Assembly: GCA_934045905.1 (NCBI GenBank) | Contig: OW203770.1 | Span: 2,046,001-2,110,000 of the forward strand | Length of the DNA stretch: 64,000 nt | Source: Leuctra nigra | Lineage: Eukaryota > Arthropoda > Insecta > Plecoptera > Leuctridae | Reading direction: 5' to 3' | Shown: positions 10,308-60,685 of the stretch, piece by piece | Layout of the letters: each line of letters opens with the position of its first letter | Position numbering within the stretch: position 1 is the first letter of the stretch | Translations under genes and position numbers: made by a program | Notes under the pieces: model-generated | Seen by the model: the letters and a program-made list of their open reading frames with translations, nothing else | Told to the model about the DNA's origin: nothing | Database searches by the model: none

Positions 10308-11575
10308 GAAGTTTAATCAGTGAAGTTTAATCTTGACCATTGACTTACTTTCCCCTAAACTGTACGAGTGGGGATTGCGGTCAGTGTTGGAGGCGATTGA
10401 AGCTTCATTAAGAAGAACAGTGTTGTGAAGTTCAAACTTTGAACTGTACGAGTGGGGATTGCGGTCAGTGTTGGAGACGATTGAAGCTTCATTAAGAACA
10501 GCGTTGTGAAATTTAATCTTGATCATTGACTTACTTTCCCCTAAACTGTACGAGTGGGGATTGCGGTCAGTGTTGGAGACGATTGAAGCTTCATTAAGAA
10601 CAGTGTTGTGAAGTTTTATCTTGACCATTGACTTACTTTCCCCTAAACTGTACGAGTGGGGATTGCGGTCAGTGTTGGAGACGATTGAAGCTTCATGAAG
10701 AAGAACAGTGTCGTGAAGTTTAAACTTGACCATTGACTTACTTTCCCCTAAACTGTACGAGTGGGGATGCGGTCAGTGTTGGACACGATTATAGCTTCAT
10801 TAAGAAGAACAGTGTTGTGAAGTTCAAACTTTGAACTGTACGAGTGGGGATTGCGGTCAGTGTTGGAGACGATTGAAGCTTCATTAAGAACAGCGTTGTG
10901 AAGTTTAATCTTGATCATTGACTTACTTTCCCCTTAACTGTACGAGTGGGGATTGCGGTCAGTGTTGGAGACGATTGAAGCTTCATTAAGAACAGTGTTG
11001 TGAAGTTTTATCTTGACCATTGACTTACTTTCCCCTAAACTGTACGAGTGGGGATTGCGGTCAGTGTTGGAGACGATTGAAGCTTCATGAAGAAGAACAG
11101 TGTCGTGAAGTTTAAACTTGACCATTGACTTACTTTCCCCTAAACTGTACGAGTGGGGATGCGGTCAGTGTTGGACACGATTATAGCTTCATTAAGAAGA
11201 ACAGTGTTGTGAAGTTCAAACTTTGAACTGTACGAGTGGGGATTGCGGTCAGTGTTGGAGACGATTGAAGCTTCATTAAGAACAGCGTTGTGAAGTTTAA
11301 TCTTGATCATTGACTTACTTTCCCCTAAACTTTACGAGTGGGGATTGCGGTCAGTGTTGGAGACTATTGAAGCTTCATTAAGAACAGCGTTGTGAAGTTT
11401 AATCTTGATCATTGACTTACTTTCCCCTTAACTGTACGAGTGGGGATTGCGGTCAGTGTTAGAGACTATTGAAGCTTCATTAAGAACAGCGTTGTGAAGT
11501 TTAATCTTGATCATTGACTTACTTTCCCCTAAACTGTACGAGTGGGGATTGCGGTCAGTGTTGGAGACTTTTATT
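10308..11575. repeat. Minisatellite with higher-order organisation
   Basis: Thirteen units share the core TGTACGAGTGGGGATTGCGG. Core starts at 10361, 10445, 10547, 10649, 10754, 10837, 10939, 11041, 11146, 11229, 11331, 11433 and about 11534 give spacings of 84, 102, 102, 105, repeated exactly once as a 392-base block, then plain 102-base units. Open frames on the minus strand (repeat peptide containing NTDRNPHSYS) come from the 102-base units but break at the 84-base units, so coding is unlikely. Confidence 0.92.
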
Positions 11576-20948: not shown

Positions 20949-21034
20949 ACAAAAAACAAATAATTAACAGAAGCTGTCGAGCTAGGTACAAGTTTAAGTT
21001 TGAACAAAAGCAAAAGCACTCTTTGAGCAAAATC

Positions 21035-21946
21035 TTAACAAATCTTATTCAAATCCGCAAATGATAAAATTTTTATGATTTTCTTTGCGTTCTCGTCTTT
21101 CTTCGCGAAAATTTTACCACTCACAAACCAGACGAACTTAAAACCAGCAGCTTTTGCTTTCTCTTTAGCTTTCCACAACAACTCCTTAAAGTAGGTGTTC
21201 AAATTTTCGTTGATATACACTCTTTTCTCACCAGCGCTACTCACACCCCCTGTGAGCAAGTTGCTGGATATGATAGTGCTTCTTTTCTCAAGGAATTCGT
21301 CTCGCTTCTTCCGGGAACTGAACTGGACGATAATACGCGATGTTTTGGTGACGTCCCTATACGGCAAGCGATGCGCAGCTTCAATGTCACTCTCGGCTAA
21401 CACAATATCCAGGTCTTTTGCCAACTTAAAAACTAAATTGATAACATTTTCTCCTGGAAGGGCCTGTATGTTGAATAGTTCAATGTTCTTGTTTCTCCCG
21501 TATTGATCTAACTTATTGATATGGTTAGACAACGATTCAATAATACAATCCTTTTCAATGTTTTGTTTTTTCAAGGTTTCCACGTCGGTTTGCAAGACTT
21601 TTACCTCTAACGCAAGGTCCTCCCTTAATTTCTTAATTTCCTCACTGATTGACTTAAAATTTTCACGGGATTCAGCTCGAAACTCTGCCATGAAAGCGTT
21701 AAACGCAGCGTCGCCATACGTAAATACCTGCGTTGCGTCTGGTGTAGTCAAGGGCGTAGAGCTGCCTGTCTTCTTGTTGTCAGACTTGCACTTCGCACAG
21801 CGCCACGCTAACTTGCTTTCTTGCGACTTAGCCACGTACGTAGCTTTTTTAATTCCCGAACAGGTAAAATGCAAACCTACATCACACCCCGAACACGTCA
21901 AGAACTCATCTTGACCCAAGATACCTGTACATTTACCGCACGACAT
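21035..21946 (-). CDS. Non-LTR retrotransposon ORF1 protein
   Basis: The 303-residue ORF is intact. It begins with a PHD-like zinc finger (CGKC ... CSGCDVGLHFTCSGI ... WRCAKC, residues 3-53), followed by a linker and a probable coiled coil rich in E, K and L (about 90-145). The C-terminal half resembles the RNA-binding module of retrotransposon ORF1 proteins (residues about 150-290, including ELFNIQALPGENV and EAAHRLPYR). The protein would bind element RNA as a chaperone. The ATG sits just after the presumed 5' UTR (21947-22040). The PHD-finger ORF1 type is known in CR1/L2/jockey-group elements; the exact clade is not decided. Confidence 0.8.
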   Translation of the reverse strand: MSCGKCTGILGQDEFLTCSGCDVGLHFTCSGIKKATYVAKSQESKLAWRCAKCKSDNKKTGSSTPLTTPDATQVFTYGDAAFNAFMAEFRAESRENFKSISEEIKKLREDLALEVKVLQTDVETLKKQNIEKDCIIESLSNHINKLDQYGRNKNIELFNIQALPGENVINLVFKLAKDLDIVLAESDIEAAHRLPYRDVTKTSRIIVQFSSRKKRDEFLEKRSTIISSNLLTGGVSSAGEKRVYINENLNTYFKELLWKAKEKAKAAGFKFVWFVSGKIFAKKDENAKKIIKILSFADLNKIC

Positions 21947-22404
21947 AACTCGAAAAACACAATGTTATTCAATACCAACGATCAGTTACTACAGAGCAAA
22001 TCAAATCAGAGACCGGTCTGCTCTGCACGGCTGACAGCGACCGAAAGTTTTAAATTGATCGATTAAACCTTTGATTGAACGGTTCCTTGTTAAGTTTCAA
22101 AAATCACATGATATCCTTCAAACAATTTACCTGGGACCACTCATATGATATGATATTACTGTGGACACAATATCAGATCAATCTGTTGAACGGTCATTAT
22201 TAGTTTCATTTCGTTTGAAACTTTCTGCTCTAACTACCTTGCCTTGAACTGAAGATTCGAAGTCGCCGTGAATTTGACAGCCAACACACAAAATGTCCCT
22301 AAAATAACAAAAACTTTTGAAAATAACTACAAATTAGACTGAAAATTGGCAAAAATACCTTAAATGTTGCTACCAATTACCATGCGAAGTTTTTAGTTGG
22401 TCGG

Positions 22405-35655: not shown

Positions 35656-36692
35656 GGTTGAAGGGGTTTGACCAAAATTGGACTTAAACAGTTTCTCCTC
35701 CAAGTCCAGGATATAGCAGAACACTAAATTAAACTGAAACCTAGAATAGATCGTTTTTAATTTTGTCTGTTAGTAGGTGATGGGTGATGGTCCTATGATG
35801 GTTAGTATATTTGTATAATTGAGTACAAGTAGTGCTATGGGGTTGTGCTTAAAGGACGTCACGCTAAAAATGAGATATTTTGACACCCCCCCCCCCTCCC
35901 CCCCAGCCCCCTGTCACGCTGTGTCACACTTTTCGAGACCCCCCCCCCCCCTAAAAGGACGTCCCAAATCTATCTCTACCCCCCCTTAAATAGAATATTT
36001 TTTACTGTAAAATGTATCAGAATTTCTCGTTCTTAGCGAAATTTCCGGTCACGACGTATCAACTGAAATTTAAAATGCTTGAAAATATCTATATCAAAAC
36101 GTGACGTCCAATAGGGAAGTCTCGTGAAGATTAGAATTCAGAATAATATTTATTTAATGAAAGTTGAGATGTTGCTGAACACAGATGTGGTATTATTTTT
36201 GTTGTTGGACGAATAGTTCTCATGTAATTAATTTACAAAGTTTGATAGATCTCCTCTCATTTAAAAACAGGAAAATTAGCAATGACATGACAGTTTGCTA
36301 TATTGCCATGGCAACAAGGGAATCCCCATGTCAACACAATGTTCAAGACTTGGAAATGACATCACAGTTCTGATTCTTGTTACAGGCCGTTTTTCCCGCC
36401 AAAAATCATATGATATTTGAACTCGATTTTTATGAATGAAAATTTAAGATTTCACAGGTAATAAGTGTATTTGTCATTATTATTTGTGTTTATTTATAGA
36501 AATTTACTAGAATAAAATTTCATGAGACTTCCCTACTGCCTCCAGTACCCACCCTTCTCCTTTCACACTGTGTCCTATACTGGTGCCCCTCCCCCCTCCC
36601 CCCCTGACGCGTGACGTCCTTTATGCACAGCCCCTATCTGCTGAGAGCTAAACATATACATTGTTGAGAGTGTTCAACCGTGACTGTCCCAG

Positions 36693-36974
36693 GTTCCACA
36701 ACCGTTGCCTCCACTAAACCCGGCTACACGTTCATCTCTGGTCTCGGCAACTACAAGTTCGTTTCTAATGCCGCCACCTGGTCGGATGCCAACATCGCTT
36801 GCATCGCTGACGGCGCTCATATGGTCATCATTAACTCAGAGGCAGAGAACACAGCAATGCAATCCTTATTCATATCCAAAGAGGGCACTATTGTCGGTGC
36901 CAGTGATGAGTTGAGCGTATGGTTGGGATACTACGAATCTGCAACCACTAACGGGGTGCTATTTGCTGTCGATG
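36693..36974 (+). CDS. Secreted C-type lectin-like protein, exon 3 (first part of the lectin domain)
   Basis: Acceptor ACTGTCCCAG and donor GTAAGA, phase 1 on both sides. After a short Thr linker it enters a C-type lectin-like fold: YTFISGLGNYKFVSNAATWS, then DANIACIADGAHMVIINSEA and ENTAMQSLF. The pattern W..A...C...GA.L..I.S..E is the family's first conserved half, and the Cys in IAC should bond to the last Cys (YIC) in exon 4. WLGYYESATTNG covers the strand that is usually WIGL in the family. Insect relatives act in hemolymph pathogen binding, a role inferred here and not proven. Confidence 0.88.
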
Positions 36975-37383
36975 GTAAGAGCAAAGATGTTATGTTTCTT
37001 TGGTAAGAGTAACTACATAATGACGTCATTTAATGTAACTACATCGTACTTCTAGAAGTAAACTGCCGTGTCATTTTTCACAGTTTTTAGTAAAAGCGAA
37101 AACAAGAAATTATTTTGTACTTTCATGTGTTTATTGGTCGATTTTCTCGAAATTTTTATCACATTTCGTCGAATTTCTATACCCATTTATCTGTTTCCGC
37201 GCTAAAATCTAGATTTTTGTAGCCCAAAAATAAAGGGATAAGTGTATTTTACAATGAATGGAATTTGGATAATAATAGATTTTATTCAAATCAGAAACTG
37301 TCAAAGTTTTTTGTACAGCATCATTAGAATTGAAACATTATTTTTTTTCGGTAACTGCACGTGAATCCAATTGAGACGAATAA

Positions 37384-43971: not shown

Positions 43972-45767
43972 TCAACACAAAATCCCCCTCCAATATGCAC
44001 GGACGTCGGCGTCTAAAGCCACGAAGAAAAGCGCCAAGATGAAGATGTGTGTCGTCGCCGTCATCAGAAACAAGTACTCGAACAAGAAGTCGCTCTTCAC
44101 GGCTTTAGCTTCAGAGAGGAAGTCAAAGAACCAGGTGAAACCGAACACGAAGAACATGAAGATACTCGTGGTGATGCGCCGCATCTGCGCAGCTCGATCG
44201 TCCTTCGTGTTGCGACGAATCACCGGACCGTCTCCGAACTTGACCCACTCGTGGATGTGGTTCACGACCATCAGGAAGACGAAGAAGTTGACGATGAGCA
44301 CAGCGGCTACAGGTGTCAGGACAGTGACGATGAATGCAGCGCCCCCGAGATAACAGCCCCCGCTGTTGCTTTCAGTGGACCTGTAGAAACTCGTGTGCCA
44401 GGAGAGAAGAACAGTGATGGGGACGAGTGGAACTCCCCAGGCGAATGCTGACGCCTTCCACAGCAGATGGTCGATGTCCTTGGCTCCGACAATTGTCATC
44501 AGTCTCTTGACCTGCAGGCCGGACAACACTAACATCCAGCAAAACATCGCTAGGAAGGAGTGATGTCGAATTACTCCCAGAGCAATGCACAATCCACTGG
44601 ATGTGTCGACAGTTACAATGTTGTTCACGAAGCCAAGAAACAGATTCGACGCCAAAGCCAAGATCATAAGCAGAAGTACTTTGTGTCCCATGTCTTTAAG
44701 CCATTTACTGTGGAATATCGCAGTTAGGAAGATACTGGACAAACCCATCAATGATATGATGCAGTTGACGGCCATCATGTAGGCAAAGGTCACATTCCTG
44801 GCGAGATAATCATTAAAAGTAGGTGTGTAGAAGTAGATTTTAAAATGCCCACGAGTAACCGTGTTGTTGTGTCCCAGATTGCTGCATCGGAAAACATCAA
44901 GGTTGCTTCTAGTGGACCTCAGAGGATTGCAGTTGACCAATGACCATGACTTGGAGTCGAAGTCCCAAGAAGCGCACGTCCTGTGTGAGTTGGGAGCGTC
45001 GAGTCTGTTGTTGATCCACACGTCGATGTAATCAGTCGAGGAAAATGGCGTCTCATCGCCGTTGCTCAGCGCCACTTGGAACACATATTCATGCAGGCCA
45101 TGAGACTCGGAATCACTGACTATCACGAAATCCACGAACGTGGTGATTCCTAGACGAGTGTTGGCCGAATGCAGAGCAGGCGACACGGTCACTTTGAAGT
45201 CGGTGCCATGAGGAGCTTCGGAACTGTCAGTTGACGGCTGGAAGTCAATATGTCCATGGCCGGTTTTATTAAGAACTGCCTCGACTCCTACAATGTCACT
45301 ATCATCTAGAGCGTCAACAACAAGAATTCCATTGTACATTCCTTGACCCGACATCAATACATTGTCACCGCTCTGGAGTACAAGGTTCAAAACCAGTTCG
45401 TCCATGGACACCAGAATCCCGTAATGAATGACAATGTAACTGAGGCGCGAAATCTTTATGTGCGAATAGTAATAATCTAGAACATTGTCAATGATGATGC
45501 TCGTCTTCTCAAGGCTGGACCGTGTGACGTTACCATTGGCTCTGTAATTTAGTAACAAAGACAGAAACACTTCCTGTCCTAGATGTGTCTCGTAGATTGA
45601 AACGAACATCTCGATGTCGTTGCGTGCCTCGTCGTCTGTGCAGGGTTTCCAAGTGACTCGGAAGTACTCGATGTCCCGGTACTCGGAGTCCAAGAACATG
45701 AGGTCCATTGAACATTTCCTCACAGCGACATTCGGAGTGCCGGGCACGATTTGCGACTGTATTGACT
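43972..45767 (-). CDS. Adhesion GPCR, last exon (GAIN-like region, degenerate GPS, 7TM)
   Basis: The exon starts at acceptor TTTCCAG (phase 1) and runs 1796 bases to stop TGA. Its first 260 or so residues resemble a GAIN-type beta-rich stalk. A GPS-like segment follows (CASWDFDSKSWSLVNC ... FRCSNLGHNNT), then seven helices: TM1 about MMAVNCIISLMGLSS, TM2 LLLMILALASNLFLG, TM3 FLAMFCWMLVLSGLQ, TM4 WGVPLVPITVLLSW, TM5 FIVTVLTPVAAVLIV, TM6 IFMFFVFGFTWFFDF and TM7 YLFLMTATTHIFILA. HHSFLAMFCWML and FGFTWFFDFL match adhesion-family signatures. The cytoplasmic tail is very short (about 12 residues ending RGILC). Couples presumably to G proteins at the plasma membrane. The canonical HL/T cleavage triad is absent. 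Confidence 0.9.
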
Positions 45768-45789
45768 CTGGAAACAAATTATACGGTGT

Positions 45790-46795
45790 AGGCGAAAGAG
45801 ACCTGAACTAGTATTCATAGGTTGCATGTGATGTCATCCATTGTTGCCACGCCTCCATCTTAATGGCACGCAGATAGCTGTGATTCTCTGCTTTTTTGAC
45901 GATATTTTCTAGTTAATGGGAACCTGGGAAATTGTATAGGCTCCGGAGATATCTTTAGTACGCAGAGGAATCACTCACATTACAAAAATACATCGATTTA
46001 CCTCAATAAAGTTATAAATCTTACCCGTCAACGTGCCAACGTAATGTCCGTGATCAGGTGGAAAATTCAATAATTTAGCATTGCTAATATAAAACAAAAG
46101 AAGTTCGTGCAAGCTATAAATACCCTAATCACAACAGCTGTCATAATTTATTCAGAATTCAGAATTCTTATTATTATTGTTGTTGTTGTGGTTAACATTT
46201 TAAAATCTCAGACTAAATCTGGCACTCTCGGCAGGGACTTTTACCCCAAAGCCTTAACTATCTAATATTTAAAAAATTTCTTGTCAAAGGACATGTCTGA
46301 AGCAGGGTTGCCTTTTGAAACATTAAAATAAAACGCTCTGGAAAATTCAATCCTTTTAAATTCCTCTTCAGGCTCTGAGGTACAATAGACTAAGCTGCAG
46401 ACATGCTTTTACAGGAATAATGTAAAATATCACTGTCAGTTGCCCTAAAGATATCACTTAACTATTAAGACAAAATAAAGCTCTCGTCAAGTTTGAGCCT
46501 AGGCTAGAGTTGCCCGTCATGGCGGCCAAGAATCTCAATGACATGTCACGTGCATACTCCAGAGCGAATGCAAATCACAGCCTTTTATACATAAAGTGAA
46601 TAGTGTATCCACTTTTAACATTGGGCCGAATGTAGATCATTTTTGGCGGCGAGTTTGGCTTTCGCTCGATCGCAGCGCTGCGGCAAAACGCAAAACGCAA
46701 AACTAGCATAACCTCAGTAGTTCCCCCATATGCCGCTAGGATCGCGTCGTTCACACAACAATTCAAGGTTATATTTTAATCTAAAAAAATTTCAC
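45790..46795. other. Adhesion receptor intron, no exon seen
   Basis: AT-rich intronic DNA. Short ORFs here have no domain match and fit no phase; the 47244 donor joins directly to the 45767 acceptor in phase 1. Confidence 0.55.
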
Positions 46796-46800
46796 ACGTT

Positions 46801-47190
46801 TTAAGACGACTGGGCAGTGAGTTTAAATTTGGAGATTTTTTTAATCGATTTTTATCAATATCCTTTACCAATGTAATTGTTAACAAAATAAGGCTATGTA
46901 CGGGTCTTCAGAACAGTTCAATGATAATAATTCCATAGCTTGTAATGGTTTATTAGATTTACTTTGTCCTACAGACGTTTAGTGCCCGAAAATTAGTACA
47001 ATTATGGTACTAAACATCTGTTGGACAAAATAAAACTAATGACTTATTCAAGCCACGAAGTTATTTTCATTAAACAGTTCTGAAGACGCGTACAAAGCCT
47101 TAATTTGTTAACAAATACATTGGTAAAAGATATTGATAAAAATCGATTAAAAAACTCTTCAAGGCCACGCTCACTACTCAGCCCTCTTAA
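46801..47190. mobile_element. TTAA-flanked palindromic MITE, family P, copy 2
   Basis: TTAAGACGACTGGGCAGTGA and the complementary right end CTACTCAGCCCTCTTAA define it. Its right edge is 53 bases beyond the receptor donor at 47244, on the intron side. Sequence has diverged more than in copy 1. Confidence 0.8.
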
Positions 47191-47243
47191 GGCTGTGATT
47201 TCCATTCGCCCTGCATACTATGATACATATTATGCTGCTGTAC

Positions 47244-47823
47244 CTGGAGCTACTTCCGGCCAATCATACACATCACCAGCAGAACTCGTCGTCGTTTCGC
47301 CTCCACATATTCCAGGACTCCAATACTTCGTCATATCAAACTCACTGTATGCCGCTTCTTCGTCACAGAAAAATACCACTTCTTTTACTCGTACTTGAAT
47401 CACCAGGCGTTGGCTCTGATCAACAGATGCTTTCCCCACATAAACTTGTTCTGTTGGAACTTTCAGAAAACCACTAACTTCTCTTTTAAAATCATCTATC
47501 AATATTATATGACAGTTTTCGTTAAAATCAAATAATTGATGATTTTTGATATCGGCTCTGTTGAGAGATTCCACCCAAGCGCTTGCGTTCACTTGTGGTT
47601 TCTTACTGACGAAGATCGCGTTGTATCCCGGAAACTGTGATATGTCATCAGAACTTGTGTATACTAATTTGCTCAAGTCTTTGCTGAAATCTGCTCTCTT
47701 GCAGATCGCACAATATGACCCATCGTCGTCGTCAGGTTTGACGAATTCTACGTCACCAGAAGATAGGTCGACCCTACCGACCCAATCGTCCCCCGGTTCT
47801 AAGTCAAAATCTGTCGGGTCCAC
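47244..47823 (-). CDS. Adhesion GPCR, exon with unrecognised ectodomain region
   Basis: Acceptor TTTTGCCCTCAG (phase 0) and donor GTACAG (phase 1). It encodes 193 residues: acidic start (VDPTDFDLEPGDDW), YCAICKRADF, then a mixed alpha/beta-looking segment (YNAIFVSKKPQVNASAW, CHIILIDDFKREV) and a C-terminal STAGDV-like acidic stretch before the donor. It fits no family I can name with confidence. The phase agrees exactly with the exons before and after, so it is part of the receptor ectodomain. Confidence 0.8.
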
Positions 47824-47894
47824 CTGAGGGCAAAATCACTACGGTTGAAAAGATTCATCAAATCCCCAAGAAGCAAGTAAAACGATTAAATGAA

Positions 47895-48701
47895 CAGTGT
47901 TGTGACTTATCTACATAAAATTATCTAGATAATTTCTAGATAATTATCTAGATTACGGAACAGGTTGGGTGAGTGGCAACGCCCTGAACTTGTATTCCGG
48001 AGGCCCGGGTTCGATTCCCGCGGCCGTCCTTCCTGACTGGGGTTTTTCGTGGTTTTCCCTCAGTCGACAGGCAAATGCTGGGAAGGTACCATACTAATAG
48101 GCCACGACCGCCTCCTTCCCACCTTCCATCCTTACCTACTCTTCACCATCATCTCCCAATCATCATCACAATCATTCATCCGTCGCCATTAGCCTCGCTG
48201 CAGAACAGTGCGACGTTAAGCCCCAGACAAAAAAAATTATCTAGATATTTTTTTTTATCTATTGTCCTATCTAGATAATTTTATAATTTGTTATCTTTAT
48301 CTTTATCTAGATAAAAATATTGTTATTTATTGCCAATTATCTAGATAAAAAATATAAAATTCCAAATGCATTTGTGTGTATTTACATGCACGAACCTCAA
48401 ATCTCAGATGGTATGAAAAAGGAAAATCATCTCTGTTTAGTCGCATTATTTCGCTTGTTTTGACGCCACATTTAAAAAAAAATTGAATTCCGAATTTAGG
48501 ATTTTTAAATATTTACGGAACAGTAGTATTTGGTGAAAAAAAATATCTATTCTCTATTACAATCTAGATTTAAAAAAAATCTTTATCTTTTATCTAGATG
48601 ATTTCTTAGAAATGTATCTATTATCTTATCTAGATAAAATTTTTGCAGGTTATCCTCATCTATATCTTGATAAAAAATAAAATTTTCTAATCACAACACT
48701 G
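47895..48701. mobile_element. hAT-type MITE, copy 3, with nested SINE
   Basis: CAGTGTTGTGACTTATCTAC and TCACAACACTG ends, flanked by 8-base TAAATGAA on both sides (47887-47894, 48702-48709). The TCTAGATAA-rich interior is split by SINE S at 47955. It lies 70 bases past the exon at 47823. Confidence 0.9.
47955..48235 (+). mobile_element. tRNA-derived SINE, family S, nested in a hAT MITE
   Basis: Complete copy: tRNA-like head with A-box TGGGTGAGTGG and B-box GGTTCGATTCC, body (CGTGGTTTTCCCTCAGTCGA), tail GCGACGTTAAGCCCCAGACA plus A run. Flanked by AATTATCTAGAT on both sides (47942-47953, 48235-48246), which is a plausible 12-base duplication, although the host MITE is rich in that motif. Confidence 0.88.
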
Positions 48702-48714
48702 TAAATGAAGAAAG

Positions 48715-49430
48715 GAAATGCATAAGTATTACTATTAAGTGGGTATTCCACTATACAATTCAGTTGGCAATATGGCTAGTGTGAAAGATAAGAAAAATCA
48801 AACTCTTGGCAATTCTTGGTTTTGAATCGGTTCTATTTTCGCAACTGCAATCGGACAATTCGAGATCAATTGACACTAGAATTGAAGCAAATATAGAAAC
48901 GGAGAACACAACTTCGTTTTATTTAATCACTCCTTATAAAAAGATCACATATTAACAAAACAATAGAATGCTAATTGTTATGAAAAAACATAAATCAAAC
49001 CTAACCTCAAACCATGAAAGTTACGCATTGAAACAAGATTTCAAATGGGACAATTTGAATCTCGAAGATTTGAGTTGCCCAGCCTGAATTGCATAGTGTT
49101 ATCCACTTTAGAACTGGCTTAAGTTGTAGTAATTGTAGATAAATCTGCATTCTCAAAAAATTATCTTTACGGTTATTTTACCAAACAATTTTACTGTAAT
49201 ATTATGTACCGTTTTTTTTTATATTTTTTTTACTAAAAAACCAGGTACATTTTTTTTAAACTTTGAAGGTTCGTATAAAGTAACCACAATTTTTTTAGGC
49301 ATTATGTGATTGAAAGATGACTAATAACATTATCGTTTTTCTGTACTAACTATTAGTTTTACGATCAAGTAAGGAAACTGCATTCTCTAATGATAATTAC
49401 CAACGAAAGAAGCCCATCTTCTGATTTGTT
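48715..49430. other. Intron, no feature seen
   Basis: AT-rich intronic sequence of the adhesion receptor; no exon and no named repeat was found. Confidence 0.5.
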
Positions 49431-49436
49431 AGCAAA

Positions 49437-51807
49437 TCCCAGAAAAAACACTCCGTGTAAAAATACCAGCCAAGTCTCTTTAACTATAAAAAAAAATAGA
49501 AAAAATCTAAAAATTCAGCACTGAAAAGGAGTGATATCAAAAAAGGAGCCAAGTCAACGAATTTTCCAAATTTTAATCGTACCATTGAAATAAAAGTATC
49601 AACCCCCGAGAAATACTTAAAAAAAGGACTTGGCGCATCGTTTTTTTAAAGACACTTTTCTATCCTAAAAGTATAGGAAGAACTCTACAAGTATATTTTC
49701 CTGAGTATATCACATTCATTATCGACGAATCATACTACGTTTTAATATAACTAGTACTCTTACCTACTGGCAGTTTTGGTATTTTGTCAATATTCAGAGG
49801 AAATAAACGGATAAACGAATAACGAATAAACGAATAACGAATAAACGGAAGCGGCCTAGTCTATTCGTTATTGCCACTATTTCTAGGGTCATATTAATCA
49901 ATCATACTTCTCAATATCGTGACTGAGGGAAATAGCGAAAGCGCTCATTACAAGAAGGCCGTCAATGAGATTTGTATAAGTGACTAGTGCACTGAGCCAT
50001 GCTGCTCAAATAATTACTGACTAGATTTTTATCTAAAGTAATACGTTATGTAATTTATTAATTTTTTTGGTATAAAATGTTAATTAATAGCAATTAATTA
50101 CACGGCGAGAAGGTTCAAAGTATAATGCTGTAGTAGGTATGTTGATGTACCCACAAAACTATAGGTACCTACCAATCACAAACACAACTGTTCTGTATTT
50201 ATTGCTTGTAAGACAATGCTATGTTTCTTTGCGTACTTATATTTAAATTTAAAATATTTTACAGAATGTTCAATATTTAATTTGAAAGTTTTGTCCCAAT
50301 TTTTCTAGGCATTTCTGAACTACGTAGTATGTGAGTGGCATAAGCTTAAGAATAGAAAAATGTCTTTAAAAAAACGATGCGCCAAGTCCTTTTTTTAAGT
50401 ATTTCTCGGGGGTTGATATTTTTATTTCAATGGTACGATTAAAATTTGGAAAATTCGTTGACTTGGCTCCTTTTTTGATATCACTCCTTTTCAGTGCTGA
50501 ATTTTTAGATTTCTTCTATTTTTTTTATAGTTAAAGAGACTTGGCTGGTATTTTTACACGGAGTGTTTTTTCTGGGATATCTCTTCTTTTGTTAGTTTAT
50601 TCATACAGCTTGTAGCACATGTCCGAGCAGGGACTAATTTCTTTAAAAAAATACGCCTCAACCGATTTGGTTACTATGAAAAGTTGCGTTTGGTATAAGA
50701 TGAAAATGATTATCCAAGAAGAATAGCTTAAGTTTCGTTATAATCGATCCAGCCGTTTTCGATACATGACGTCACTTCCGGTTTTGAAATAGCGGCCGAA
50801 TTCCGGTATAGGTAATAAGAAAACAATCTAGTTTTATCTAGTTGATACCTTCATGAACGACCATCTGAATTCCTAATCCCTATATTTCCGTAAAATCGGT
50901 CATGCCGTTTGTAATATATGACGTCACTTCCGGTTTTATTTAGTGGTTCCTGCCGCCATTTCCGGTACCATTAATTTATTTATTCATTTTTCACAATTGA
51001 TTTGTCAAATAAATAGCAGAATGAATACGCAGGAGCTAGTTCAGTTGCAATCGGTACAGGCGTTTTAGATATATGACGTCTCTTCCGGTTTCAGGAATGG
51101 CGGCCGAGAACACTGCTACCTTGAATATATAAATTGTATTGTCTATGTTACAATGTAAGTTAATTATGTACGTATTTTAAGTATAATTTGTTGAAATAAG
51201 TTAAATATTGCGTATTTATGACGTCACTTCCGGTTTAGAAAATAAGAAAATAATATTTTTTTTATTGATACTTCATATAGATGACCATCTAAATCGAATG
51301 GCGCTAATTTCGTTCTAATCGGTCCAGACGTTTTTGAGTTATGACGTCACTTCCGGTTTCAAAATGGCGGCTTCCGGTTGGTTTTATAAAAAGGCACCTC
51401 AGACGCCAAAAGTGCACATGTGGTAAAAATTTCAGGTCGATCGGTTTAGCCGTTTAGGCTGTGGCGGTGATAGCGACGTTTCGTGATATCATCAGAATCA
51501 TCATCATCTTCAGAATCAGAAAGTGGTGTAATTTCACTGTTTTCTCGGTCCTCGAGCGCGCAAATGGCATAACCTATTGTTCCCAAATTTGGTATATGTA
51601 GTGGGGTGGGCCATAGCTCGAAATTAAGATATTTCGCAACAATGTGAGATTTACCAATTTTGAGATCCAGTAGGCCGAAAATGCCATGTTGTTGCTTACA
51701 GTAAAAGTGTTTGGTCTGCTCTTTAGTTTATTAGGCATTTACGGTATGTTGAGTGACTGTGAGTGTATAGTACGACTTGGCTGGGTGGAGCGACCGCTCC
51801 ACTAGAT
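49437..51807 (-). mobile_element. Foldback family F, largest copy
   Basis: TCCCAGAAAAAACACTCCGT at the left, a foldback of about 1.14 kb (49437-50578) that includes ATAAACGAATAACGAATAAA tandem units at about 49801-49850, then the CRE-like module body on the minus strand (TGACGTCACTTCCGG repeated at 50769, 50919, 51216 and 51341), ending GGTGGAGCGACCGCTCCAC with CTAGAT. The module order mirrors the plus-strand copies. Confidence 0.78.
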
Positions 51808-52309
51808 TAAAAATTTTCCCATGCAATGACAACAAGTTTCAATTACCACTAGAAAAATAAGGTCGGAAAAAACAGGAAACTTTGGGAAAAAACAGTGTTT
51901 TTCCGTTTTTTCCCGAAGACCAGGAAAAGTTGCATTTTCGAGAAAAAATTGAAAAAAACCCTATCTCCTTGTTTGAGTAAGATTTTGACACAAATTCACA
52001 TTTATTTAGTGAAAAGGTTAACATATTAATATTGAATGCCTAACATTGTTACCTACCTATTTGTAGATACATATTCCTACAGGTTTCTAATTTATATTTT
52101 TATAATTATAAACAAGTGTAATTAAATGAGAACATAAGAATTCAAGTTTTGATTTGGTATTGAATTGGCCCCGATAGTTTGACAAAGTAAATTGCAATCA
52201 AATAAGTTGTACTGAAATTATACAATATTTACGAGAATCAATATTAAGGTATGTTATAATCCTGATATCATGGCATGGCCATTTGGCAAAAAGTCACTTG
52301 GAAAAACTC

Positions 52310-52712
52310 TTAAGAGGCAAACGGATGCGAACGGGAATCGCACGGTTCGTCAGAGCGTTTTTTTTAAATTTTGTCTTCCCACTTAATAATTTTAAAAAAT
52401 CAGATAGTAACGACCCATTACAGCCTAATAGACTAAATAATGCCGCACACTGGAGTTCATTATGACCTCTGGTGCGACCTCAAAGTGTTAAATACGATTA
52501 TTTTTTATTATTTTACTAAAAATATCGTATTTAACACTTTAAGGTCGTACCAGAGATCATAATGAACTTCAGTGTGCTGCATTATTTAGTCTATTAGGCT
52601 GTAATGGGTCGTTACTATCTGATTTTTTAAAATTATTAAGTGGGAAGACAAAATTTAAAAAAAACGCTCTGACGAACCATGCGATTCCCGCTCGCTTCCG
52701 TTTGCCTCTTAA
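52310..52712. mobile_element. TTAA-flanked palindromic MITE, family Q, copy 3
   Basis: TTAAGAGGCAAACGGATGCG and complement, with TTAA at both edges, near-perfect arms meeting at about 52511. It inserted in the receptor intron about 150 bases from the exon donor at 52860. Confidence 0.82.
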
Positions 52713-52859
52713 AAACCTGAACACCAGAACACCAAATTTTCACTGCTACTTCAAGGACAGTTATTTTTCAATTTTTACAAAATTTCCAGAAAAAAAACAG
52801 GAAAAATTTAGATTTTTTTCCAAAGCAATTTTTCCAGGAAAATTACCATCCCTACTTAC

Positions 52860-53116
52860 CACTCTTGTGTAGGTATCACCAGTGGCAAAATACACGCTCA
52901 CTTTGATATTGTAAGGAACCAATCCATTGTCGCAAAACATTGTCTCTGCCGGACTCAGCTTGTCAAAGTCCCACATCATGTGGCAGTTGATACAGCTTTG
53001 GAACTGACAGAAGTCTAGCCAATAAGACCACGGGTAAGGAGAATCAATATTATACTCTTTGTATGAAGAGTTGTCCAGAGGGTCGATTGAGGCGATGCAA
53101 GTGTTGTCCAAAACAT
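52860..53116 (-). CDS. Adhesion GPCR, Cys-containing ectodomain exon
   Basis: Acceptor AATTCCAG (phase 1) and donor GTAAGT (phase 0). It encodes NTCIASIDPLDNSSYKEYNI, then DFCQFQSCINCHMMWDF and AETMFCDNGLVPYN, ending SVYFATGDTYTRV. Six Cys suggest disulfide bonds outside the cell. No family was recognised. Its first codon combines with the base left by the WSC exon at 54333 (A + AT = Asn). Confidence 0.82.
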
Positions 53117-53122
53117 CTGGAA

Positions 53123-53485
53123 TTAAAACGGCTGGGTAGTGAGTTTGACCTTGAAGAGATTTTTAATCGATTTTTATCAATATCTTTTACCAATGTAATT
53201 GTTAACAAAATAAGGATTTGTACGAGTATTCAGAACAGTTCAATGAAAATAATTCCATAGCTTGGAATTGTTTATTAGATTTACTTTGTCCTACAGACGT
53301 TTAGTGCCCGAAATTAGTAAAATTATGGCACTAAACATCTGTTGGACAAAATAAAGCTAATAACTTATTCCAAACTATGATATTATTTTCATTGAACTGT
53401 TCTGAATACTCGTACAAAGCCTCATTTTGTTAACAATTACATTGGTAAAAGATATTGATAACCTTCGATTAAAAATCTCTTCAAG
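53123..53485. mobile_element. TTAA MITE, family P, copy 3 (3' truncated), abutting a splice acceptor
   Basis: Starts TTAAAACGGCTGGGTAGTGA only five bases from the acceptor AG (53117-53118). The right arm ends before its TTAA (CTCTTCAAG at 53485), where a Helitron H fragment begins. Confidence 0.75.
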
Positions 53486-53720
53486 AAATAAGAGATGTTG
53501 GTTTTTTAAAATACGAGTTGTTCAGATTTTTCGAAGACCATTTTAATTTGTCAATCTATCAGGAGATATTTATTTAAATTTTAACTAATTCAAAAATATT
53601 GGGGTATGAAAACAGAAAAAGTTGTCTTTACATGTGTGCAAAATTTCAGATCGATCGGTGAAACGGTGCTACCTGTGTATCGGTCAGTAGCAGAAATAAA
53701 AAAAATAAAACAGAGGTCCG
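53486..53720 (-). repeat. Helitron H fragment
   Basis: Contains the module CGAAGACCATTTTAATTTG, GTGTGCAAAATTTCAGATCG and a degraded CAGAGGTCCG block. Both true ends are missing. Confidence 0.6.
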
Positions 53721-53734
53721 ACTCCGAAAAAAAA

Positions 53735-54300
53735 AATCAATATTCCAGCTGAACTTTTCTTAACGTTTTGGAGATCTTGTTTCCCAATACGGTAGAACAA
53801 AGGCTTATGGTGTGTGTAACTCGGTAACGGACCCTTTACCGACTTTTTTATGATATTTTACAAAAAAAAATAAAAAAGAAAGATTTTTAAAAATAATGAA
53901 AAAATTATGAAGCAAAATTAATATTGCAATATTTTTGTTAAGGAGTTATGTATTTAAAGTTATTCAAATATTAAATATTTTTTTATTTTCTGGTGGTAAT
54001 TTTACAACTATTTTTGTGAATAATTTTTTTTTATTTTGTTTTACGTTCGGTTCATTTTTAAATTTTTGAAAAAATTTAGCCAAAACTTTGTAAAATTAAA
54101 GTGTCTTATTAAAAAAATTACAAAAAAATAATAATTTTAAATACCTACATATAAACTACATTAACTAAAATATTGCAATATTGATTTAGCTTTTGTTTTA
54201 GTATTTTTATAATTCTAAATTAAAATGTGAAAATTTGAAGAGATTGTGGCTAAACTTTGTAAAAAATTTCAAATAAAAAGTCAGAAATCTGTCTGTCGGT
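53735..54300. other. Very AT-rich intron, no feature
   Basis: Dominated by A and T runs (for example AAAAAAAAATCAATATTCC and many TTTTTT blocks). No coding exon was seen other than the neighbouring WSC exon. Confidence 0.5.
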
Positions 54301-54332
54301 AAGTGCATAAGTGCCATACAACCGTAACTCAC

Positions 54333-54481
54333 TTGACGGTTCCTTGTACGGCGTGGCGACGTAGACTTCCAGAGCATAACTCCCACCACAAGATGAGTTC
54401 GGTTGCGCCGAGCAGATCCTGTCACAGCGATGATCCGGTAGAAGCGTAGGCGGCAGGAAGTTGCCACAGTAACACTCTTCA
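54333..54481 (-). CDS. Adhesion GPCR, second half of WSC domain 2
   Basis: Acceptor TTTTGCACCAG and donor GTGAGT. Encodes EECYCGNFLPPTLLPDHRCD, then RICSAQPNSSCGGSYALEVY. The pattern CYCG....CD..C...P...CGG...LEVY is the C-terminal half of a WSC domain, a Cys-rich fold proposed to bind carbohydrate. Phase 2 to the exon at 55745 and phase 1 to the exon at 53116. Confidence 0.88.
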
Positions 54482-54679
54482 CTGGTGCAAAAGTAGAACA
54501 TTCATGCATCATTTCAATCATTACTCATTAGTCCAGTAATTTTGAGATAATACCCACCACTAATTGCAACAGAAGGTTTCAATACATGAATCGATTCAGA
54601 AAAATCCCTCTACAACACATAAAATCGCCCAAAATTCGTGCACCGGAAGTACTTTTTAATCACTTTTTAAGTTAAATTT

Positions 54680-55740
54680 CCATGTTAATTCCATCTTGCA
54701 AAAAATACTTTTTTTCATGTAACTCCGATTTTGACGAAACTTGGCAGAAACTTTACTACGCACCTGGAATGAACCTACCTGATCACATGGGCATTATTGT
54801 GATAATTTTTAAAAAACGCGGCCCACCAACAAAAGCAAATTCGTATTATTGGTCCGCAAGTCAAAAGGTTGAGTACCATCTGGACTAAACTGAACCCTTC
54901 CAAGCAGTGTTGAATTCAGACTTTTTTGTGCGGGGGGGGGGGGGGGGCTATTGACATTCTCGGGGGTGCACACCATGTCTGAGCAGTGGCGTGCGGTGTA
55001 TTTTTGTAGTGGGTACGCAGAAAGTCTAGTGTTTTACAAGACATCAATGGGGGGTCTGGGGGGAGGGCTCCCCAGCTACCCGCGGGTCCGGGCCGCGTAG
55101 GCCCGGAAAATTTTTCAATTTCGCAATTGCATGTAGTGCATTTTTACGCGGTTTAGACTAATCTTTTTCGTTATAACATATCATCATGACATAACGACAT
55201 GATGAAAACATCACTGAAAAGTGAAAACTGAACTGCGCCCCTGTGTATTCTTTTGCAATACACGAGTGTGTTGCAAAAGAATACTTTAACTGCAGGAGAG
55301 CAACAATTATAAAAAAAAACAGTTCAAATGACATTTAAAAATTATTAATTTTAATAATCAATTCGAGATATATCTAAATCATTTGAATCAGACGCGGGAA
55401 TAAACGATGGGATAGGGAGAAGAACAAAACAAAGAGTTAAAACTTTCAACCACCCATTATATATTATGAACGTTATCTCATTATCACATCTTTTAGATTA
55501 ATCAACTAACTGGCTCGACATAACATTTTAAAGAAAAAAAAAAATTATTTATTTAAAATTTTTGATATTTTGTAAAATGCTTAGTTTATTTTTTGATATG
55601 AGGAAAATTTGCCCCAGGGGGGCAATGGCCTACCTGCGGGGGGGCTTCGCCCACCCGCAGGTATGCCTGGATTCATCGCTTCCAAGTGAAAATCTGTAGC
55701 ATTTTGGTTTGAAAAGGTCACGTGATATGCATATTTCAAC
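54680..55740. other. Receptor intron with old GC-rich repeat relics
   Basis: Contains a G run (54938-54957), a GGGGGGTCTGGGGGGAGGG-type segment at 55040-55090 and an inverted-looking GCCCACCCGCAGGTATGCC (55650-55670). None has coding or mobile-element termini I can define. Confidence 0.45.
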
Positions 55741-55744
55741 TCAC

Positions 55745-55871
55745 TTAGTCTCCAGGCCGGCGTAGTTGAAGCCCGCGCATGCGTGGACGCACTTGGTCGG
55801 CGTGTTTCCGCTCAGCTGAAGAATGTGCTTCAAAACCCTCTCGGATATGTCCTCAAAGCATCCAAGTCTCA
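55745..55871 (-). CDS. Adhesion GPCR, first half of WSC domain 2
   Basis: Acceptor CCTTGTACAG and donor GTGAGT. Encodes VRLGCFEDISERVLKHILQL, then TPTKCVHACAGFNYAGLET. The family pattern LGC(F/Y).D...R.L.........C...C...GY.YAGL is clearly met. The phase-2 end joins to EECYCG at 54481, making one continuous WSC domain. Confidence 0.88.
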
Positions 55872-55919
55872 CTGTACAAGGAAACATTCGAATCACTTAT
55901 TTGAGAAGAAATTGCATCA

Positions 55920-56047
55920 GGGGACCTATTCTAGAACTTTTAAATTCCCAATTCCACTAGAATTCGATTCCTTGCAATGTTAATCCTTATGGCCGTGACC
56001 GGATTCCATCAGAATGGAATTGGGAAAACGTTCTAGAATAGGCCTCC
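55920..56047. mobile_element. Short TIR MITE (CCTATTCTAGAAC ends)
   Basis: GGGACCTATTCTAGAAC and the complementary GTTCTAGAATAGGCCTCC bracket 128 bases, with a second pair of TTCCCAATTCCA. It lies 50 bases outside the WSC exon at 55871. No target duplication is obvious. Confidence 0.6.
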
Positions 56048-56517
56048 GCAGTCCAAGTTTGGCGAAATCGAGTTGAGACTTAAAAAATAATTTTTTTATA
56101 CACCTACCCAAATGATGAGAAAGGGCATCTTTTAATTTTGTTAAAATTTAAAAAAAAATGCTGAGGACATCTAAGAATTTTTTAAACGTAAATAATATCA
56201 AATACCAGGCTGTAAAAAATCTAGATTTTCGGAATTTCGGAATAATTTTTTTAACAATTTTGATGGTGTTCATTAATCCATATTAAATTAGTATTAAAAC
56301 AGTAAATTATCATAAAACTTAAAGAAATAACGTGAAACAAAATTGAGAAATGAGTCCAAGGGGTAAATCAACCCCCTTACACCACAGGGTAGTTAATTTT
56401 AAGAACATGTCAATTATTACAATTTAAAACCAACAGTTAAGAAATGCCGAATATTTATTTAATTTTGTATTCAGTTTTTCCTATAATTATCTCAAAACTA
56501 TTCGAGAAAATTAGGGA

Positions 56518-56704
56518 ACACGACTGACCTCTGGTGGATTCTTTGTTACTAGACATAAGGGGGATAATGGAGGATATCACGGGGATTTTATATAAATAAA
56601 ATATATTTCATTTGCTTTAATTGTTTGTTATGGCTGAAAAAGTAAACTTGTAGCTAAATCTAAATTTCAATTGTTCTCCTTTTTCACTGCCCTATGGAAA
56701 CACG
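56518..56704. repeat. Dispersed repeat, member 1 of an inverted pair
   Basis: ACTGACCTCTGGTGGATTCT through TTCACTGCCCTATGGAAACAC recurs in inverse orientation at 60775-60967, with a few differences. It could be an inverted duplication or two insertions of one element. Confidence 0.65.
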
Positions 56705-56820
56705 AACTTCGAAATAAAAAGTGCATCTAAAAAGTTTCCTGCCAGAAGTGGCTCCATCACATATCTCTTATTTGTTCGAATTGAAAGTATCCAGTATATT
56801 GATAATAGTAATGTTCATAC

Positions 56821-56969
56821 CTGTTGTGTTCAAATCTTGTGTTACATTGTACACCTCCATTGCCAGATCTCCGCCACAAGTGTGTCTCGGGTCACCGGGA
56901 CAGCTCACGTTGCAGCGTACACTTGGCAACGTTGTGTTAGGCAGAGTGTCTCCGCAGTAGCATTGCGTT
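56821..56969 (-). CDS. Adhesion GPCR, second half of WSC domain 1
   Basis: Acceptor TTTCTTATACAG and donor GTATGA. Encodes TQCYCGDTLPNTTLPSVRCN, then VSCPGDPRHTCGGDLAMEVY, ending NTT. Same C-terminal WSC half pattern as 54333-54481 and equal in length (149 bases), suggesting tandem exon-pair duplication. Confidence 0.88.
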
Positions 56970-56989
56970 CTGTATAAGAAATCAAACAT

Positions 56990-57180
56990 AATAGACCGAT
57001 TTAAAAATTATCTAGGTGGCTCTGATTTTCAAAAAATTTCACATGCAGTTTGGTTTTCCATATATCTATTGGTGTTTTACAACAATGGATAGAAACGCTA
57101 ACAGGTATATGGAAAACCAAACTGCATGTGAAATTTTTTGAAAATCAGAGCCACCTAGATAATTTTTAAATCGGTCTATT
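56990..57180. mobile_element. Perfect-arm hairpin MITE next to the WSC1 exon
   Basis: AATAGACCGATTTAAAAATT and its complement form arms of about 80 bases with few mismatches. The edge is about 20 bases from the exon 56969 acceptor, so the minus-strand intron end is largely this element. Confidence 0.75.
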
Positions 57181-57587
57181 CGTGAGCATGACATCAAGCG
57201 ATAGAATCACGGTCTTCTGAAAATTTCCACAAATTTGAAAAGAAATTCGAATTTCTAGAAGGCCGTTTCACTATGGCAAGACAATTTTATATGTAAAACT
57301 GCACTTTTCAGATGGAAAAACGTATAAATAAAGCAGTAAAACCCTCATAGCTCGGTAAAACGTCCACGAACGTATATATTTAAAAATATTATAATAAAGT
57401 ATTGAATCTGATACACGCTATAGTAGTTTTTCAAAAAATCTATACGTAGAAAAACAGCTCAATACACTTTTGAAAATCAGCATGACTTTTTCCGTATGGT
57501 CGCAATGTTAATCTGAGAAAAATCTGTAAACTTTGAAGTGATATATCTCGAAAATTAGTTAACGTTGATCATTTTTTCTCGCCATAT

Positions 57588-59805
57588 TGTCACGATGTGT
57601 ATTTTTGCTAATAGTGTATCGCTTGTGCAGGATATTCTGGCAACGAACTCTATTAATGGCGTGAGGTCAACACGAGGTCAGCTAAGCAGGCGACACATGT
57701 ACCTGAGCCTGACGCCGTGCCGACGCCACACGACGCCGCCGACGCCTGAGCGAGACAGACCTTGATGCCGCACACGCTGAGCTCCTGATGGACCGGATCT
57801 CAGTCATGAGGTCATGCTGACGTCACAACTCTTTGGTCAACTCTTTGGTCAACTCTCAGCCCCTCATCACACGACCGAGATGAAACGTTCAAGATTCAAG
57901 ATCATCTTCAAGCTCCATGGCGACTTCGTGTGTGAGTGATACGTGATAAGCTGGGAAGACATCAAGTGTCAGTGTTCTAGTTGTGAACTCGCTCAGACAA
58001 GGCAAGGCCGTCGATACACGATCTAACTACATCTCATCTTCAGACTCATTCATTCATCCCAAGAAACGCATTTGCATTTCTTGTTCTTGTTGTTAATGTT
58101 ATTTACATTCTTTGATTTTTAATTGTATGAGTATGTAATTAGATCGACGCACGAAATATTTATTTCGTTGTTTTTATTCATCTACTTTCATCGTTTTCAT
58201 CGTTTTCATTAAGTTTTTATTCATGCGTATTTGACTTGAACTCAAATTTGGTTAAATAAGTTTTTCTCTTTTAAGTTGTATGTTCAACTTCGGAATTTTT
58301 ATTTTTTCCTTCTTCAGTTAGGGGAGGATAATGTTGAATGAATTCAACATTGTAGTTTAATTATGTATTACAAATGATCAAAAAAAATTGTCTATTGCGT
58401 CATTTATTAATATTTTTACTAACATTTTCAACAGGATCAACCCACAAGTGCAATACCTTCATTAAACACATTACTAAATTAACAAGTCAAAAAATATAAT
58501 TAAACATTCCGAATTTAAAAGATTACAACTGATGATTATTACTAAAAAGTCTAATTCCAAAGAAAAACTTTGAACTATTGCAATTCTCAAAAATGTCACA
58601 GGAAATTATTCTTATTTACATGTCTAAATCACTGGGTAAGAACATTGTAAGTGGACACTATCCTATTAAAAGTTGGCAACGTTTTTCAATGATAATTTGA
58701 ACTGATGTTGAAAAATAAGCAGTATCCTATTAAAAACAAGACGTTTGAAAAATAGGCGTTAGAATTAAGTATTAGGGTATTTCAAAAAATTTCTGTTATT
58801 ATTACATGAAACAAAATTTAAAAGGTATGAAATCGTTTTAATTGATAATGAGTTATTTGTGTAAATTGCTCATGAAATAACAAGGAATAGATACACATTC
58901 ATTTTATCTATACCCATCATTTTGTTTTTATGTAACACTTTGCATGCAAAATTGCTCTCCACATGAGAGGGGGTGAAACTGGTCACTTGGTCACGTCTCT
59001 TCACGCTAACAAATTCTCAGAAGATAGAAAATACGTACACACAGAGGTATCTAAGAGAGAAAAACAATCCATTAGAGTGATCAAGACATAAATTACAGGA
59101 TGATTACAAGACATCAACCCTCGGTTCGACACCACAGTCCAGTACCGCGGCAAATGACACTCTACCACTTTCGCTCGCACAAGAACATAACATCATCCAG
59201 AAGAGGGGCCACGAAATCGGGACGATTTCGGCTTGCAAGGAGGAGTGTCACGATAACTCGTATTTCCCTTACATACCCCACTTTCTAAACCCCTTTGTCT
59301 TACACCCTAGTTCACCCCAATAACCCGCCATCCTTCTAGAACCACCCTAGTGTTCACTCGTATCCCGAAACTTCGTGACCCGCGGTACAATCCTGCGTGG
59401 CGGGCTGCCTATCAGGAAGGACTGTGGCAGCGGCCAGTGCACTCAGATCACGCGATACATCTGATACTGCCTGGTCAGTTATTGAGAAGTCGAACCTGGG
59501 AGCCCACGAGGCGATCTGTCGAGGAGTCGGCGACAAGATCTAGCCAAGACAACACCTGGAGGACTCCACGGGCGGGACGCAGGACAACCGCGAGGCGCGG
59601 GACGGACGCGGGACCACGTGGCCAATGAGATAAGTGACAGTTTCGCCCCGTAGCTTCACTACACCATTGTAACCCTTTCCGTATTTTATACCTTAATAAT
59701 AAATTGCTCTACATTTACATGTATTTCTTCTACATCTAGCTACAACCCTCCCCCCCTATAACTATAAGTATCAAGATCCCAACGAGAACGATTATTCTCG
59801 TGACA
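57588..59805. mobile_element. Possible degenerate LTR retrotransposon or long solo LTR
   Basis: Begins TGTCACGATGTG and ends TATTCTCGTGACA, flanked by ATAT on both sides (57584-57587, 59806-59809). TGT...ACA ends and a four-base duplication are typical of gypsy-like elements. A second TGTCACGATAACTCG at 59227 is preceded by the purine tract AAGGAGGAG, so 59227-59805 may be a 3' LTR. No gag, protease or polymerase motif was seen, and no matching 5' LTR. It lies between the two WSC1 exons. Confidence 0.4.
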
Positions 59806-60099
59806 ATATTATGATGCAGAACATAAAAATCTATTTATGGATCTATTCTATAAATATAATCTATTTTCAGGACTTAACGCATCGTTTGTTAAAGACTTTT
59901 CAAAGTTAGCTTATTTATTTCCATCCGGTGTAGGTTACGGACTGATGTCACTTCTTCAAAATATGTGCGTCTATCGTCAATAATGAGATTTCCACAATAA
60001 AGTTGATTTCGTAATTTTGAGGACTAATTCCCTTACTGGAATAACTGATTCAATTTCGGAATGACTTAGCAACTTTCAATAAATATTCCTACCCCCCCC

Positions 60100-60545
60100 C
60101 CCCCCCCCCCCCCCCCGACGGCTGCCACCTTATCGCGGTGGTGGGATTTGTGTTGGCCAATGATCCACTGCAGCTAAGCCGGCGAGCATATGCTCATGTG
60201 TAAGGGATGCCGGACAGGTCAGTGGTGAGGCCCAGACAAAGAGCAGCCAGGGTCGGCCTAACCATGCTCTTCCTTGAATTTGCGGTCCCCTCGAGCCGGC
60301 CTTCCCCCTCGAGATGGTGATCCCCCTGAAATCGGGTTCCGCCGGCCCGAATCCTCACACCCCCCGGTCCGTCCCCATTCCGGCCTGGCCTTCCCACCAG
60401 TGCTGGACTCCCCCGGATTGGGCCCGTTAGGTCGACCCCTCTCCATGTCCTCCACTTTTGATCAACAAAGTTAAATATAAAAACTAATGTGCGCAATATA
60501 ACCTCGTCGTTGACGCGCCGTTAAACCACAATAATCTAATCTAAT
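60100..60545 (+). mobile_element. GC-rich retroposon 3' end with ATCTA-type tail
   Basis: After a C run (60093-60117) there is a GC-rich body and then a CGTTGACGCGCCGTTAAACC end with a short tandem tail AATCTAATCTAATCTA. This is the usual 3' terminus of certain insect LINE/SINE families. It lies immediately downstream, on the intron side, of the WSC exon donor at 60556. Confidence 0.55.
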
Positions 60546-60555
60546 CTATTCCTAC

Positions 60556-60685
60556 CCTGCTTCCAAGCCCGCATAAGTATGTCCAGAGCAGATCATCACA
60601 CACATTTGTGGAGAGTTCAGAGTAGACAGATGTTGCCCTCCCCAGATGTGTTCACTGCTGTCTTGATAGCAACCAACAGCTACAT
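60556..60685 (-). CDS. Adhesion GPCR, first half of WSC domain 1
   Basis: Acceptor TTTCTGTTGCAG and donor GTAGGA. Encodes VAVGCYQDSSEHIWGGQHLS, then QMCVMICSGHTYAGLEAG. Joined to 56969 it gives GLEAGTQCYCGD, the centre of a WSC domain. It starts in phase 1, so at least one further 5' exon (with the signal peptide) lies upstream, not recognised before 64000. Confidence 0.85.

Follow-up and report, generated by a model that had tools for sequence, protein, structure and literature searches.

A gene of adhesion GPCR descent with two WSC domains and a decayed GPS in Leuctra nigra, one of a family of related copies

For the most part, adhesion GPCRs form small conserved receptor sets whose activation works through a tethered agonist linked to the GPS, and their cleavage residues are H-L-[T/S]. 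The WSC domain is also carried by the fungal Wsc stress sensors, which are single-pass proteins and, unlike the receptor described here, have no 7TM. Polycystin-1, SpREJ6 and SpREJ7 combine WSC with GPS in surface proteins, according to the available excerpts of PMC1934368 and PMC9672506, and the present receptor shares this combination with a GPS remnant; for the sea urchin protein SpREJ10, which carries WSC too, the same excerpt of PMC1934368 makes an exception as to the GPS. Polycystin-1 and the SpREJ proteins also have REJ, PLAT and up to 11 TM, whereas neither REJ nor PLAT, the marks of the polycystin-1 family, was listed for our receptor in the Pfam scan (limit E 10). The CTL and WSC domains of PC1 were reported to bind Wnts (PMC9672506, excerpt). 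Methuselah and Methuselah-like proteins, too, are 7tm_2 receptors that have expanded in arthropods and acquired their ectodomains (PMC4768249, in part), and Methuselah carries Methuselah_N where our receptor has WSC.

Among the matches listed in the open-licence PMC literature we found no WSC adhesion GPCR described, from arthropods or otherwise, which agrees with the original prediction on described insect adhesion receptors. The terms "WSC domain" and "adhesion GPCR" co-occurred, among the matches listed, in a polycystin-1 review (PMC9672506, available portion) and a Fusarium Ste2 paper. WSC and 7tm_2 were both among the invertebrate domains accompanying SRCR in a table of PMC10855680, whose accessible part does not show them in one protein, and "WSC" was not found in the accessible part of a 2026 adhesion GPCR review. 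None of 51 hits in a sequence database (4 + 3 + 44) had both PF01822 and PF00002 in the listed domains; this is weak evidence of absence because candidates must share exact 5-residue words. The locus places WSC in a receptor with seven helices; otherwise, the WSC proteins with a GPS described in the portions of these sources are polycystin-1 and the SpREJ proteins.

The window analysed is a 64,000 nucleotide stretch of Leuctra nigra (assembly GCA_934045905.1, contig OW203770.1, positions 2,046,001 to 2,110,000). Seven minus-strand exons with GT-AG borders were rebuilt from the sequence, from 60685 to 43972, with phases 2, 1, 2, 1, 0, 1; joined, they encode 1061 residues with the stop at 43972. 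The features are as follows, with exon identities in the paralogue at C9:3.67 Mb given in brackets.

60685-60556, minus strand: exon E1, WSC domain 1 (97.7%)
56969-56821, minus strand: exon E2, WSC domain 1 (98%)
55871-55745, minus strand: exon E3, WSC domain 2 (85%)
54481-54333, minus strand: exon E4, WSC domain 2 (90%)
53116-52860, minus strand: exon E5, Cys-rich juxta-WSC module (71%)
47823-47244, minus strand: exon E6, Cys-containing module (86%)
45767-43972, minus strand: exon E7, GAIN-like ectodomain, degenerate GPS, 7TM and stop (96%)
56821..60685, minus strand: WSC domain 1 (E1 and E2), Pfam PF01822, residues 3-76
54333..55871, minus strand: WSC domain 2 (E3 and E4), second PF01822 stretch
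44851..45423, minus strand: GAIN-B-like region, E7 residues 115-305, by hhalign to canonical adhesion GPCRs of the same genome
44872..44976, minus strand: degenerate GPS, CASWD..W..C..FRCSNLG, by the cleavage-position residues in 25 E7 exons
44056..44787, minus strand: seven-transmembrane bundle, Pfam 7tm_2 E 9.6e-15 and ADGRG6 E 4e-14 by sequence

Matches within its own genome give good support to the window gene being one of dozens of related copies and not a single gene. E7 had 75 matches at E 0.001 (one being the window), E6 had 70 at E 0.01 and E5 had 57 at E 0.1. Identity was at least 37% in 74/75 of the E7 matches and 28% in one short piece; 53/75 spanned from residue 9 or before to residue 590 or beyond, and 52 of these 53 had no internal stop. 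Leaving out the 28% piece (C12:25480870, an N-terminal piece beside another match), we counted 74 E7 places, and places are not exactly genes, since a single gene seems to be divided between C12:12732238 and C12:12731359.

Paralogues repeat these exons in matching order, strand and splice phase, and between the window and its nearest copy dN was lower than dS for each exon in the comparison, namely the six from E2 to E7, so the join is more than chance. Conservation likewise gives good support to a single gene that includes both the WSC exons and the 7TM exon. The paralogue at C9:3.67 Mb contained E1 to E7 in the same order and strand. The E6 donor was conserved in place and phase at 30/30 loci, and the E7 acceptor in 25/25 aligned E7 exons, which are a chosen, non-random part of the 75 (the window's own included in both counts). 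E5, E6 and E7 were collinear at 53/74 E7 places, taking up 53/57 of the E5 places. At no fewer than 31/74 E7 places, WSC exons lay upstream in the same orientation, at most 60 kb away and with no intervening E7; the controls gave 3 on the wrong strand, a lenient count as an E7 was allowed in between, and 4 downstream. Counted by Pfam search alone, such places numbered 19/74, whereas 2000 random draws averaged 0.32 and never exceeded 4.

These results bear on another arrangement, in which E1 to E5 encode a secreted WSC protein and E6 and E7 a separate 7TM gene. The E5-E6 intron is 5 kb and bears repeats, and 72/168 WSC places (from lower-bound counts) were away from any E7, so that WSC proteins without this 7TM probably exist. 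However, E6 contains no in-frame ATG from its upstream stop to its acceptor, whose phase 0 matches E5, and the collinearity at 53/74 places, the WSC upstream of at least 31/74 and the retention of all exons in the C9:3.67 Mb paralogue also count against two genes; we consider this arrangement extremely unlikely. The original prediction had given the seven-exon join with the same phases and a single gene from WSC to 7TM, and both stood; its gene extent held for the seven exons and failed at the start, since the gene begins outside the window.

An upstream exon in phase 1 is required by the E1 acceptor. When the DNA beyond the window was compared with the paralogue, an eighth, signal-peptide-like first exon was located at C9:2110712-2110640, equivalent to window positions 64712-64640 and beyond the window end. 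It reads MCCLLMMTWLVAGVLFSLATVHGS, the paralogue version differing at two residues, and both copies have a CAG|GTGAGA donor in phase 1. By eye it looks like a putative signal peptide. No convincing first exon was found inside the window.

In hmmscan of the 1061 residues, two WSC stretches were found (PF01822, E 1.1e-29, 102.9 bits against a curated cut-off of 27.8) together with 7tm_2 (E 2.1e-14). Pfam GPS (PF01825) and GAIN were not listed at the limit of E 10, at which HMMER filters nevertheless drop most matches above about 0.1; the GPS of ADGRG6 scored E 2.2e-16 in the same test. Of the predicted WSC-WSC-GAIN-like-GPS-7TM order and the HMM scans proposed with it, the two WSC domains and the 7TM were thus recovered by Pfam, and the GPS was reduced to a degenerate remnant that fails the Pfam test. 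Descent from adhesion GPCRs, also predicted, was upheld by the 7tm_2 match, the ADGRG-type relatives and the GPS remnant.

Against PDB sequences E7 found ADGRG6 first (E 4e-14), and NCBIfam gave no match for E7. Among the 25 chosen E7 exons, 18 contained 7tm_2 and five matched Frizzled (best E 4e-06). The 7TM is common to the mammalian adhesion GPCRs ADGRG6 and ADGRG2, and with ADGRG6 the GPS position is shared too. The 7TM also resembles those of two receptors from ticks, P0005 and P0006, named respectively ADGRG6-like and uncharacterized protein; P0006 has C-type lectin and Ig domains as well. Unlike our receptor, P0005, P0006 and ADGRG6 have a Pfam GPS, and no WSC was listed for any of them or for ADGRG2.

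Methuselah-type receptors are the class B group known to have expanded in insects, with their ectodomain swapped. Such a receptor would follow the same logic of 7tm_2 plus a lineage-specific ectodomain in an arthropod expansion (PMC4768249, in part), and a Somatomedin-B 7tm_2 protein, P0007, gave a weak 7TM match (E 1e-5). But Methuselah_N was not listed in the Pfam scan (limit E 10), the best relatives among the sequences compared are ADGRG-type and a GPS remnant is present, making a Methuselah origin very unlikely.

At the GPS position the family consensus is about CASWDF..SWSL.NC.PLRSTRSGLDVFRCSHL. Pfam GPS was listed in 0/25 of the E7 exons examined (limit E 10). None of the 25 had T, S or C at the +1 cleavage position (G in 13, D in 10 and N in 2). 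H was found at -2 in 12/25; the window reads N-L-G there, so it does not follow the H-L-[T/S] cleavage rule. An intact GPS, considered as a candidate, was rejected on the two counts of 0/25. Six residues past +1, Thr was found in 24/25 and the next residue was Arg in 24/25, starting a TRGYF-like stretch which may be a candidate remnant of the tethered agonist.

The GPS and, by profile likeness, GAIN-B are decayed and not absent, as judged from the following comparisons. One family member, L078 (42% identical to E7), scored 24.2 bits in Pfam GPS against the cut-off of 22.5 and kept all four cysteines; it was the only one of 34 genome-wide Pfam GPS matches to fall on an E7 place. Three other receptors of the same genome, L079-L081, have the canonical full CxCxHLTN motif. 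In hhalign, the family ectodomain profile matched these three with a probability of 98.3% (E 2.2e-14); the alignment spans 190 columns and has the GPS at its end. The profile of L079-L081 in turn reached solved GAIN structures (6v55, E 5.9e-11; 4dlq, E 1.8e-5). Searched by itself against the PDB, the family ectodomain profile hit nothing but spurious Kelch repeats, with no GAIN among them, and no match was found for the first ~115 residues of E7. At the level of profile likeness, these comparisons show the GPS and GAIN-B part to descend from a canonical adhesion receptor, and the receptor is likely uncleaved. L079-L081 are likewise encoded in a single ~600-aa GAIN/GPS/7TM open frame, but differ in an intact CxCxHLT GPS (Pfam E 6e-11 to 2e-12) and a longer C-tail. 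The AF2 model of E7 had a mean pLDDT of 41.6, too low in quality to search for similar folds; the succession of four helices, some ten strands and eight helices in it fits GAIN plus 7TM and is not proof of it.

The WSC counts are lower bounds, as 150 of 311 candidates were scored (limit E 1), and 150 of 218 in another WSC search. With these counts WSC was not found at 43/74 E7 places and so is not a family-wide trait; it was found at 27/37 places with at least 49% identity versus 4/37 among the others. In a tree of the 25 E7 sequences the window grouped with L039-L042, all WSC-bearing, and the WSC label needed three changes against a shuffle mean of 8.1. On C3, a paralogue carries four WSC units ahead of its E5, arranged as two cassettes (two of the four units were Pfam-checked), and the first of these cassettes may instead be part of a broken neighbouring gene. 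Upstream of E5 in the WSC-less L074 there are repeated Ig-like stretches, weak and below cut-off (Ig_3, E 0.004); in the WSC-less L073 no Ig-like unit was seen by eye. The WSC exon places not near an E7 (72/168) were in many cases arranged in tandem clusters (C1, C4, C7, C11 and others).

Between the window and L040 (C9:3.71 Mb), E7 residues 1-150 had dN of 0.42-0.46 with saturated dS, and residues 150-597 had dN of 0-0.02 and dS of 0-0.15. L041, on another chromosome-size contig, was similar, with dN of 0.01-0.04 and dS of 0.05-0.22 in the second part. This sharp shift of synonymous distance inside E7 points to gene conversion or recombination, which would keep the stalk/7TM half alike. No signal of diversifying selection was found, dN being lower than dS in all exons and segments with unsaturated dS.

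We think it fairly probable that the gene belongs to an adhesion-derived receptor family, lineage-specific and probably uncleaved, whose heads are of lectin type and whose role is recognition, contact chemosensory or immune. The large copy number, the varying WSC number, the exchange by which the stalk/7TM half is kept alike and the differing distal half fit such a family. The predicted product would be a class B2 (adhesion-derived) GPCR with two WSC domains behind a signal peptide, followed by the Cys-containing E5-E6 module, a GAIN-B-like region with decayed GPS, a 7TM and a short C-tail. For ligand, pathway and biological role, we infer the following, as the original prediction did for glycan or matrix sensing and control through the stalk: the WSC heads would bind a glycan or glycoprotein on another cell, matrix or microbe; the receptor would remain in one piece; and the binding or pull would be relayed via the intact GAIN-like stalk to the 7TM and then to a G protein. 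WSC proteins are found within a parasite-resistance locus of Daphnia (PMC9894429, available portion), which makes an immune role worth testing and does not itself count as evidence for one here.

An ordinary developmental adhesion receptor, whose WSC would bind matrix and sense force as proposed for other adhesion GPCRs, with copies arising by neutral duplication, is possible though unlikely. By sequence, the nearest relative with a solved structure is ADGRG6, and six exons have dN below dS, as this would have it, but 75 core-exon matches in one genome and varying heads would be unusual for single-copy developmental receptors, and the cleavage site is lost.

Returning to a recognition family, we might speculate, with rather more doubt, on an undescribed pancrustacean class: dozens of uncleaved adhesion-derived GPCRs with swapped heads (WSC of varying number, perhaps Ig-like) and a gene-converted stalk/7TM, serving as G-protein-coupled lectin sensors for contact chemosensation or immunity. 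Dozens of copies that combine lectin-type heads with loss of the cleavage site would offer a natural test of how such receptors signal when autoproteolysis is lacking and, in arthropods, a candidate repertoire for recognition.

Several other features were detected in the window and genome. Palindromic repeat copies are located at window 46801-47190 (just after E6) and 53123-53485 (just before E5); one copy comes to within 7 bases of E5 on the upstream side, so that the repeat may have supplied part of the E5 acceptor region. A LINE-type element at 18334-21964 on the minus strand contains a reverse transcriptase (PF00078, E 3e-35), an endonuclease-like frame below cut-off (E 0.00013) and, in an ORF1-like frame, a PHD finger together with a Baculo_FP_2nd domain. 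At 36668-37006 on the plus strand we found a C-type-lectin-like exon just under cut-off (Lectin_C, E 0.0012), possibly in a plus-strand gene that runs from about 32.6 to 40 kb in the window. The minus-strand region 10317-11164 has open frames of a repeated unit, PHSYSLGESKSMVK..., resembling a minisatellite array. No telomere repeat arrays were found at six contig ends. The genome gave 149 RR cuticle matches, and a mitochondrial contig has code-5 frames and the gene order I-Q-M-nad2-W-C-Y-cox1-L2-cox2-K-D (protein genes named from their frames); both point to Pancrustacea, and of the insect-like genome in the original prediction they support this wider level. Besides the mitochondrial contig C144, a full-length COX1 match was located at C13:51651552-51652892 on a nuclear-size contig, either a recent nuclear insertion or an assembly join.
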